Below are positions 18,421-26,595 of a stretch of 35,242 nucleotides of DNA, piece after piece. How positions within the stretch are numbered: the stretch's first letter is position 1; every line of letters begins with the position of its first letter. Both the position numbers and the translations under genes were made by a program. This DNA is from Ramlibacter sp. (GTDB taxonomy: Bacteria > Pseudomonadota > Gammaproteobacteria > Burkholderiales > Burkholderiaceae_C). Under the pieces are notes generated by a model that searched no databases, was not told the DNA's origin, and saw only the letters and a program-made list of their open reading frames with translations. The stretch spans positions 1-35,242 of the forward strand of contig JALHLO010000011.1 of NCBI GenBank assembly GCA_022844525.1, written 5' to 3'.

Positions 18421-19887
<1,467 letters not shown>

Positions 19888-19898
19888 ATTCTTCCTTT

Positions 19899-20166
19899 CA
19901 CCTGGAAATCGCCGGAGCGATTTCCAGGTGGCTTGATCAGTGTGAAGGGGCCCGGCAAAGCCGGATCCCCTTCACAAGTGAGACCAGTCTGCGCGATGCT
20001 CCGACTGGTCTACGTGCCGCTGCGCGGTGGCGCATGACGGCGGCTCTCACACTGGACCGCGCGGAATAACATGCAGCGCGGTCCCCCTTTTGGAGAGGAT
20101 CCGGCTTTGCCGGTCCTCTCCAAACTGACTAGGCAACTTGGAAATCGCTTCAGCGATTTCCAAGTT
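19899..20166. repeat. Mirror array of hairpins (two inverted 113-nt arms) filling the gltB-gltD spacer
   Basis: Left arm 19899-20011 and right arm 20054-20166 are inverted copies: 83 of 113 positions match with no gaps. Each arm folds into three hairpins. H1 (19899-19930) and H6 (20135-20166) have 14-bp stems with 4-nt loops. H2 (19941-19976) and H5 (20089-20124) have 10-11 bp, a small bulge, 5 bp and a 3-nt loop. H3 (19981-20011) and H4 (20054-20084) have 9-bp stems with 13-nt loops. A seventh, weaker hairpin sits in the 42-nt centre (20016-20044). H6 begins 2 nt after the gltB stop, and H1 ends against the gltD Shine-Dalgarno sequence. No U-tract and no clear target duplication are seen. 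It could be an RNA processing or stability element, or a miniature mobile element. Confidence 0.92.
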
Positions 20167-20168
20167 AA

Positions 20169-24899
<4,731 letters not shown>

Positions 24900-24931
24900 G
24901 GCGCGCACCTCGGAAATTCAGGGGAAACCCG

Positions 24932-24967: not shown

Positions 24968-24988
24968 AATTGGGGTCAGATTCCAATT
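24968..24988 (+). repeat. Left 21-bp inverted repeat of the RAYT element
   Basis: This is an exact reverse complement of 25734-25754. It begins AATTGGGGTCAG and contains an internal AATTGG/CCAATT palindrome. It lies 7 nt upstream of the proposed gltB -35 box, between the transposase and gltB. Confidence 0.9.
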
Positions 24989-25014
24989 AACGGCTTCGCC
25001 GTTCTTGTCTTCTC

Positions 25015-25722
25015 CTAATTGGGGACAGGTTGCTCCTTCGTGGTGCGCGGACGCCCCGCATGGGCGCGCGCGACCCTCCGTTCGGTGCGCTTCTGGAGCT
25101 CGGCGACGTAGTCGGGCTCGCCCAGCGCCCAGCCTCGCAAGGCCGAGTCCGTCAGCGCCTGCTGCTCGCTTTCGCTGATCCCCGCGCGGACCAGCGCGGC
25201 ATAGGCTTCGTCGCGGGCGAAGGGCGTGTTGCCCAGTTCCCAGTACAGCGGATGCGGGGTGATCAGCTTGTCCGACCGGCGCCCGGTGTAGTGCTGGTAG
25301 CTGGACCAGGGGTATTCGCCCGGATCGGCGACCATCCCGGCGCGCACCGGATTCAGGTCCATGTAGACCATGCAGGCCAGCAGGTGGCGCTCGGCCTGGA
25401 TCAACGTCGACTTGTAGCGGCCCTCCCAGAGCGTGCCGGTGCGGGCGTGTCGCAGGTTGTAGTTGCGCACGTAGCGGCGGCCCACGGCCTGCATCATCTG
25501 CGGGATCCCCTCTTCCGTCTCCGGCGTGGCCAGGATGTGGAAGTGATTGCTCATCAACACGTACGCATGGACCGCGACATGCTGCTTGCGGGCGTGTTCG
25601 CCGATCAGTTCGAGCAGGAGTTCGTAGTCCGGCGTTCCCGTGAAGATCGCCTGGCGGTTGTTGCCGCGCTGGATGATGTGGTGGGGGTAACCGGGGACCG
25701 TCAGCCGGGGAAGGCGCGCCAT
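25015..25722 (-). CDS. REP-associated tyrosine transposase (RAYT, TnpA-REP type, Y1 HUH)
   Basis: A single-strand DNA transposase related to IS200/IS605 TnpA, 235 residues. The N-terminus MARLPRLTVPGYPHHIIQRGNNR is typical of RAYTs. The HUH motif is His60-Phe-His62 in VLMSNHFHIL. The likely nucleophile is Tyr120 in ACMVYMDLNPVRAGMV. Conserved GTLWEGRYKS (96-105) and YPWSSYQHY are also present. The C-terminal 60 residues are basic and variable. All catalytic residues seem intact. It begins 7 nt after the methyltransferase stop, so it may be translated by read-on from that gene. Its last codons lie in an AATTGGGG repeat copy. RAYTs are usually single-copy and domesticated. Confidence 0.92.
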   Translation of the reverse strand: MARLPRLTVPGYPHHIIQRGNNRQAIFTGTPDYELLLELIGEHARKQHVAVHAYVLMSNHFHILATPETEEGIPQMMQAVGRRYVRNYNLRHARTGTLWEGRYKSTLIQAERHLLACMVYMDLNPVRAGMVADPGEYPWSSYQHYTGRRSDKLITPHPLYWELGNTPFARDEAYAALVRAGISESEQQALTDSALRGWALGEPDYVAELQKRTERRVARAHAGRPRTTKEQPVPN

Positions 25723-25728
25723 GCCGCA

Positions 25729-26595
25729 TCATAAATTGGAATCTGACCCCAATTCTTGAAGTCCGGGAAAGCGCCGCGGCTCCAGGTCGGCGATGCCGAA
25801 CTCCGCGAGGATCGCGCGCAGCCGCTCCGCGGCGCTGCGCTTGCGCTGGCCGGTGAGGCGGGCCACGATCAGCTCGTTCTTCATCGAATGCTCCCAGCCC
25901 ACCAGCTCGGTCACGGTCACCTGGTACCCCATCGCCTCCAGGTAGAGGCAGCGCAGCACGTTGGTGACCTGGCTGCCGATCTCGCGCGTGTGCAGCGGAT
26001 GGCGCCAGAGCTCGGACAGCGGCGTGCGCGAGAGCGCCAGCGCCTTGGTCTGCCGCAGGCAGCCGGCCACCTCCGCCTGGCAGCACGGCACCAGCACCAT
26101 GAACTTCGCGTGCTTCTTCAACCCGAACGCGATCGCGTCGTCGGTCGCCGTGTCGCAGGCATGCAGCGCCGTGACCACGTCGATCTGCTCCGGCAGTTGC
26201 GCCGCGTCGGCCGCGTCCGCCGCGCTCAGGTGCAGGAAGGACATGCGCTCGAAGCCGAGCCTGCGCGCCAGTTCGCGCGACTTCTCCACCAGTTCCGCGC
26301 GCGTCTCGATCCCGTAGATGTGGCCTACCCCGCGCGGCTGGAAGAACAGGTCGTAGAGGATGAAGCCCAGGTAGGACTTGCCCGCGCCGTGGTCGGCCAG
26401 GGTCGGGTGGCCAGCTTCGGCCGGGATCTCCAGCAGCAGCTTCTCGATGAACTGCACCAGGTGGTGCACCTGCTTGAGCTTGCGCCGCGAGTCCTGGTTG
26501 ATGCGGCCCTCGCGCGTCAGGATGTGCAGCTCCTGCAGCAGCTCCAGCGACTGGCCCGGCTTCAGCCCCAGGTCCTCGCGCACGTCCTTCTTCAC
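25729..26595 (-). CDS. Class I SAM-dependent methyltransferase (Methyltransf_32-like)
   Basis: The 288 residues start with GTG at 26595, overlapping the DUF1415 stop as GTGA. The Rossmann motif I is LADHGAGKSYLGFIL (67-81), the acidic end of strand 2 is IYGIETRAELVEK (93-105), and motif IV reads DVVTALHACDTATDDAI (139-155). VPCCQAEV follows at about 169-176. The ALHACDTATD signature resembles the Methyltransf_32 group; substrate unknown. The final residues (ELGSDSNL) and the stop fall in or at the right inverted repeat of the RAYT element, so the original C-terminus may have been replaced. The N-terminal 60 residues are helical and charged. Confidence 0.85.
   Translation of the reverse strand: MKKDVREDLGLKPGQSLELLQELHILTREGRINQDSRRKLKQVHHLVQFIEKLLLEIPAEAGHPTLADHGAGKSYLGFILYDLFFQPRGVGHIYGIETRAELVEKSRELARRLGFERMSFLHLSAADAADAAQLPEQIDVVTALHACDTATDDAIAFGLKKHAKFMVLVPCCQAEVAGCLRQTKALALSRTPLSELWRHPLHTREIGSQVTNVLRCLYLEAMGYQVTVTELVGWEHSMKNELIVARLTGQRKRSAAERLRAILAEFGIADLEPRRFPGLQELGSDSNL
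25734..25754 (-). repeat. Right 21-bp inverted repeat of the RAYT element
   Basis: This is an exact reverse complement of 24968-24988. It lies within the last codons of the methyltransferase gene and encodes the residues L-G-S-D-S-N just before its stop. Confidence 0.9.

Follow-up and report, generated by a model that had tools for sequence, protein, structure and literature searches.

REPs of the GTAG and CGTC super-families are palindromes of 20–40 bp that carry a GTAG or CGTC tag; they often lie at most 20 bp from the 3′ end of a gene, sometimes supplying its stop codon, frequent G-T pairing is cited for their stems, and in a few families dimers are set inside longer palindromes (available parts of PMC3733652, 2013). 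REPINs, according to the accessible portion of PMC3116915 (2011), are inverted doublets that are tied to RAYTs and thought to move as single-stranded DNA. The beta-proteobacterial repeat element BRE is described in extracts of PMC3110155 (2011) as an element of about 90 bp that is mostly intergenic and present in at most 29 copies on chromosomes of Bordetella and Comamonadaceae. The names Ramlibacter, Comamonadaceae, Variovorax and Burkholderia are absent from the text of PMC3733652, and no description of the repeat reported below was recognised in the accessible parts of the open-licence PMC literature.

The window, a 35,242 nt stretch of a Ramlibacter sp. contig, contains between gltB and gltD an array of two inverted arms with three hairpins each (Table 1), which fills the 281 nt spacer (19888–20168). 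An inverted-repeat search of the window gave an arm pair at 19897–20010 and 20055–20168 (114 nt, 75% complementary), and a hairpin search detected H1, H3, H4 and H6 as local hairpins; H6 is drawn with 15 pairs. About the mirror x → 40065−x, 85 of the 114 positions are complementary, as compared to 36–38 for the next best of the 50 axes tried, and the design, coordinates and symmetry described in an earlier note on this DNA are thereby borne out. H1 is located 10 nt upstream of the gltD start and spares the Shine-Dalgarno-like sequence AAAGGAAG. We consider it probable that a dispersed palindromic repeat with three hairpins, present as an inverted dimer, makes up the array and was inserted between gltB and gltD in this Ramlibacter lineage. 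The repeat is a multi-copy family that most relatives lack at this site. Its arms stand alone or in pairs with H1 outward, H1 is strongly biased to stop codons, and the helices of the arms are preserved through paired Watson-Crick changes without a G-U excess.

Table 1. Features of the array and its surroundings in the window.
Feature	Position	Strand	Basis and remarks
gltD, glutamate synthase small subunit	18421..19887	-	Pfam Fer4_20, Pyr_redox_2
Whole element, two inverted arms: H1-H2-H3-mini / centre / H4-H5-H6	19898..20167	.	Inverted-repeat and mirror analysis
H1, left arm, outermost; 14 bp stem, 4 nt loop	19899..19930	+	Hairpin search; H1 pairing seen family-wide
Left arm core (H2+H3)	19928..20016	+	Covariance model R1, 110.2 bits; among the seven sequences from which R1 was built
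H2, nearly invariant tip CCGGC-RAA-GCCGG, covarying outer stem	19941..19976	+	R1 match and alignment
H3, stem AGACCAGTC/GACTGGTCT	19981..20011	+	Hairpin search and alignment
Mini-hairpin CCGC-TGC-GCGG, inner end of the left arm, within the array centre	20017..20027	+	Sequence
Right arm core (H4+H5, equal to H2+H3 on the - strand)	20048..20137	-	R1, 105.7 bits; also among the seven building sequences of R1
H4, counterpart of H3	20054..20084	-	Hairpin search
H5, counterpart of H2	20089..20124	-	Mirror of H2 about 40065; fold
H6, counterpart of H1	20135..20166	-	Sequence and hairpin search; starts 1–2 nt past the gltB stop codon
gltB, glutamate synthase large subunit	20169..24908	-	Pfam GATase_2, Glu_synthase, Glu_syn_central, GXGXG; stop codon abuts H6
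RAYT-type Y1 transposase gene	25015..25722	-	PF01797; directly upstream of gltB; with flanking repeats 24969–25755

A blastn search with the spacer against its own genome found copies on four other contigs, each matched on both strands, and a covariance model of the arm core (H2 plus H3), named R1, was built from seven arms of the places found by blastn. R1 detected eight strong arms at six places in this genome: pairs at gltB-gltD and on C8, and single arms on C141, C152, C117 and C144, the last being a weaker match outside the building set of R1. Within the genus Ramlibacter/Caenimonas, 47 of 60 genomes, the own genome included, match R1 at E ≤ 0.01 with up to 42 matches per genome; among the better assemblies the number is 34 of 45. 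A sample of 399 genomes from the whole family contains ten with matches at E ≤ 0.001; five of these ten belong to three genera other than Ramlibacter/Caenimonas. These genus and family counts are lower bounds, because stricter filters were applied and the number of candidates scored per genome was limited to 73 and 11, respectively. The genome search and the covariance model, which the earlier note had put forward as the way to recognise a repeat family, thus gave the dispersed copies that identify one. Ramlibacter and Caenimonas belong to the Comamonadaceae, and a strict pattern run on a named genome collection matched 13 stretches that are all titled Ramlibacter or Caenimonas, which fits the family guessed in the same note. 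The repeat was not found in plasmids or phages, and viral contigs gave no match to one exact arm pattern.

The site itself was compared among relatives. Of 59 genomes, 57 yielded gltD and 56 a readable gltB-gltD junction, one ending at a contig edge. The spacer measures 0–33 nt in 41 of these 56 genomes, 51–63 nt in seven and 112–129 nt in six, in which it contains a different repeat. It reaches 162 nt in G039 and 281 nt in the window genome; the only 0 nt spacer (G059) may be a frame artefact. When these loci were scanned with R1, full arms were detected in only two genomes, two arms here and one in G039. The rarity of the arms, together with the 0–33 nt spacer in 41 genomes, indicates that the array is an insertion, and the other outcome considered in the earlier note, a cis-regulatory element specific to the glt genes, is contradicted by it. 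Another occupied site lies behind ychF; a ychF match was obtained in 56 genomes, of which 30 were read. Four of the 30 carry an arm, which starts 0–4 nt past the stop codon in three genomes and overlaps it in the fourth. In the window genome the stop codon TAA of ychF is provided by the TAAC end of H1; the other 29 genomes have TGA or TAG. Presence and absence possibly also reflect the loss of ancestral arms, for example at ychF, since the arm has the same place in four genomes. A transposon-derived MITE would be expected to have a target-site duplication and a partner transposase sharing its ends; visual inspection of the gltB-gltD and ychF sites showed no duplication. Since neither a partner transposase nor a target-site duplication nor an excision event was found for the arm, its mobility is deduced from presence and absence. 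The arm is apparently a mobile repeat dispersed across the soil-dwelling genus Ramlibacter and usually located just past the ends of genes, and not a switch built for gltB/gltD.

Two further observations concern insertion. L033 (contig C117 of the own genome) and L055 (G009) seemingly represent the same intergenic region, judging flank homology by eye, and contain the arm in opposite orientations, which suggests independent insertions. Neighbouring arm pairs within 6 kb number 30, one of which is '+-' and far apart (G044:C155). This sole far '+-' pair encloses genes that look ordinary when their translations are read by eye, and an autonomous transposon with arms as its ends was rejected as a candidate.

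The layout of the repeat was derived from 118 arms at 95 loci, which are among the best-scoring matches and hence a non-random sample (42 of the 48 matches of a first set, six weak matches of 22–28 bits and with them loci L045 and L046 having been dropped, and all 76 of a second set). Inward from its outer end an arm starts with H1, typically TCACTnnGAAAAAGTCGC-loop-GCGACTTTTTCnnAGTGG, which a linker resembling GCCTGATCAG connects to H2; the tip of H2, CCGGCRAAGCCGG, hardly varies. H3 follows, its loop being close to TGCATGNTATTCC, and many arms then have the mini-hairpin, which is present in 40 of 72 single arms and 26 of 46 arms of doubles, as compared to 16% in shuffles. One arm was detected at 72 of the 95 loci, although some loci counted as single may hide a second, degenerate arm, and the other 23 have two arms, all with H1 outward ('+-'). 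The same arrangement is displayed by all 26 neighbours within 100 nt in five copy-rich genomes, among the 150 of 194 matches listed.

Gene ends were taken from a codon-usage gene finder trained on six ORFs of the window, one of which was later replaced by an overlapping ORF. The H1 end lies −15 to +12 nt from a stop codon whose gene reads into the element in 72 of 117 arms (all but one of the 118 having an outward neighbour gene), as compared to the inner end of only 4 of 72 single arms (Fisher p = 5e-16, with arms that are not independent). The H1 drawn by the hairpin finder overlaps the stop codon in 18 arms. The gene pairs around the 94 loci with both neighbours are codirectional (60), convergent (23) or divergent (11), two gene pairs being left untyped because a neighbour gene is missing. 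Purifying selection in compact genomes could account for part of the stop-codon bias.

The hairpins display strong covariation. In the H2/H3 alignment of 76 arms, which was fitted to R1, a procedure that favours pairing, 22 of 27 pairs have changed on both sides, two-sided cells number 293 versus 71 in shuffles, and 95.9% of the cells pair versus 81.6% in shuffles. H1 pairs with itself at 0.90, and with the H1 of other copies at 0.43 (106 of the 118 hairpins). Wobble pairs are few: G-T accounts for 30 and A-C for 68 of 3176 cells in H2/H3, and for 12 and 16, respectively, of 1768 cells in H1, the latter counted without the hairpin finder's bias for G-T over A-C. Over all hairpins this gives 84 A-C versus 42 G-T, an excess that comes partly from a few columns. 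Structural RNAs carry many more G-U pairs, and a tRNA control contained 12 G-T and no A-C among 104 pairs; this control is tiny, consisting of five ARAGORN predictions of which three are similar tRNA-Gln and one looks false. The strong covariation of all three hairpins, together with G-T being no commoner than A-C, points to upkeep of the stems as DNA palindromes, which fits single-strand processing or template switching. Template-switch repair of hairpin stems can make a stem perfect and introduce compensatory changes of several bases in a single event, and in the accessible part of PMC8794818 (2022) it is treated as a mutation mechanism for RNA genes and not as an element family. The ratio of G-T to A-C is 25:39 in arms transcribed in the arm sense versus 4:22 in start-facing arms (Fisher p = 0.045), and this relative abundance of G-T hints at some RNA-level constraint.

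Several other explanations of the array have to be weighed. The predicted RNA folds are very stable on both strands (z = −12.1 on the gene-sense strand and −13.3 on the other; 0 of 200 shuffles equally stable) and the same site is occupied in G039, by one arm, as could be expected for a cis-regulatory RNA of the gltBD operon, either an attenuator or the switch between six hairpins and one long hairpin that the earlier note had envisaged. We regard such an RNA as very unlikely, because the arms are confined to two of the 56 gltB-gltD junctions, the element adjoins many other genes too, the arms within pairs lack extra likeness and G-U pairs are few. In the folding that the note also suggested, the full long hairpin (−108.0 kcal/mol) loses to the local hairpins (−159.8 kcal/mol) on the gene-sense strand; all energies are model values. 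For the other strand the predicted values are −155.4 kcal/mol for local hairpins, −134.8 for the full long hairpin and −165.8 for a mixed fold with H2:H5 paired; long-range pairing would thus be physically possible there, the modelled mixed fold beating purely local hairpins. Identity of the arm cores is 0.709 within pairs (23 pairs) versus 0.736 between different pairs, and since arms that share a pair resemble each other no more than unrelated arms do, the long hairpin does not appear to be selected. The long-hairpin switch was rejected on these grounds, single-armed loci being in the majority as well (72 of 95), and the mirror symmetry reflects two copies of one repeat. The best of five Rfam matches in 19700–20350 scored 21.9 bits versus a gathering score of 100. 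A portable bidirectional terminator, in which the A-tract/T-tract stem of H1 behind stop codons would be kept for ending transcription both ways, would be in agreement with the frequent form GAAAAAGTCGC-loop-GCGACTTTTTC of H1 at stop codons and with the terminator-like hairpin that occupies the H1 position in L055 and L032. It is an unlikely explanation all the same: a consensus scan of the window copy found no terminator-like site in 19850–20220 on either strand, the T-run lies inside the stem and has a length of only 2–3 in 31 of 72 stop-facing arms, and the T-runs of stop-facing arms are not longer than those of start-facing arms.

That the array is a REPIN or BIME proper, H3/H4 being REPs moved by the RAYT of the window, seemed attractive in view of the only PF01797 gene detected in the genome, 4.8 kb away, the arrangement of arms as inverted doublets, as in REPINs, and the GTRG found before H3 on the reverse strand in 27 of 118 arms. 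This RAYT gene is bounded by its own inverted repeats, however (GGGTCAGATTCCAATT, a motif present at three places in the window genome), and PF01797 was detected in 57 of 59 genomes, including G001, G002 and G004, which have no arm matches. The gene and gltD are on one contig in 43 of the 56 genomes having both, 5.5–6.7 kb apart, and no arm was found in 30 RAYT loci (98 kb) at E ≤ 1. The resident RAYT looks like a vertically kept gene with a repeat of its own, and the link to the arms, which the sole Y1 gene in the window had first made appear strong, was dropped. In addition, 91 of 118 arms lack GTRG at this position, CGTC, TGTC or CCTC occurs there in none of the 118, and the conservation of doubles does not clearly exceed that of singles, mean pairwise identity being 0.724 for 32 arms of doubles versus 0.713 for 44 singles (76 of the 118 arms; 0.770 versus 0.758 in G016 and 0.705 versus 0.751 in G019). 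We therefore judge this origin distinctly improbable.

The arm is best filed with the REP/BIME-like repeats, as a variant. Like the REPs in the available parts of PMC3733652, arms are short dispersed intergenic palindromes that occur as singles and head-to-head dimers near the 3′ ends of genes, a placement evident from the stop-codon counts given above; unlike them, an arm is about 120 nt long with three hairpins, has no constant tag and rarely contains G-T. The remark in the earlier note that ordinary REP units are simpler is in agreement with this. As regards BIMEs, in which REPs alternate in orientation, inverted pairs of arms occur at 23 of the 95 loci, but the unit is not a tagged REP. 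With the REPINs, as far as PMC3116915 was accessible, the repeat shares the inverted doublet that can fold as one long hairpin or otherwise, and compensatory changes; it differs in that no RAYT is linked to the arms, detected singles outnumber doubles (72 versus 23) and the arms of doublets have no extra likeness. The repeat thus behaves like REP-like repeats, and the results obtained for tag, RAYT proximity and doublet conservation set it apart within them.

Returning to the reading that we prefer, the inserted dimer of a dispersed repeat, the arm would spread as a non-autonomous element through hairpins formed in single-stranded DNA, with H1 presumably as the end that meets the target. Its helices would be rewritten as DNA palindromes by single-strand processing or by template-switch repair of quasi-palindromes. 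Consequences for gltBD would be a side effect of the conversion of a tight junction into a long spacer; the hairpins should shield the 3′ end of the gltB mRNA, and may lower expression of gltD relative to that of gltB. A more far-reaching and doubtful proposal is that the arm represents a new class of single-stranded-DNA mobile repeat, with integration of the H1 end at stop codons, an enzyme other than the resident RAYT, and stems that are continually re-copied into perfect palindromes by template switching. If this were true, it would be a class in which stems have rapidly changing sequences but retain Watson-Crick pairing throughout, with no intermediate wobble pairs. The family adds a large, well-resolved palindromic repeat to those of the Burkholderiales, with arms that can be compared over dozens of species. 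Its rare G-U and abundant two-sided changes make it a testable case for stem upkeep at the DNA level, which bears on the persistence of bacterial palindromic repeats, and its placement at stop codons lets junctions within operons, such as gltB-gltD, be studied as a natural experiment.

In L055 (1501–1620) and L032 (1698–1735) the H1 position is held by a hairpin resembling a strong native terminator, which suggests that arms can fuse to existing terminators. H1 as a free, pre-existing terminator that receives arms was rejected, since the H1 pattern occurs only beside arms (six of six distinct matches in eight genomes), though the hairpins in L055 and L032 look native. The H2 tip is shared with a second repeat, GGCCCGGCAAAGCCGGTTCC; the pattern of the shared tip has 63 matches in G023, most of which, among the matches listed, belong to the second repeat. 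The gltB-gltD spacers of six relatives (L134, L138, L146, L098, L122 and L124) contain this second repeat, which is GC-rich and has the H2 tip module GGCCCGGCRAAGCCGGTTCC in common with the arm, and R1 matches these six spacers weakly (18–21 bits), mostly over the H2 tip, five matches being partial and one extending over the full model. BRE is reported to form tandem runs at some loci, unlike the arms (PMC3110155), and the second repeat may be BRE.
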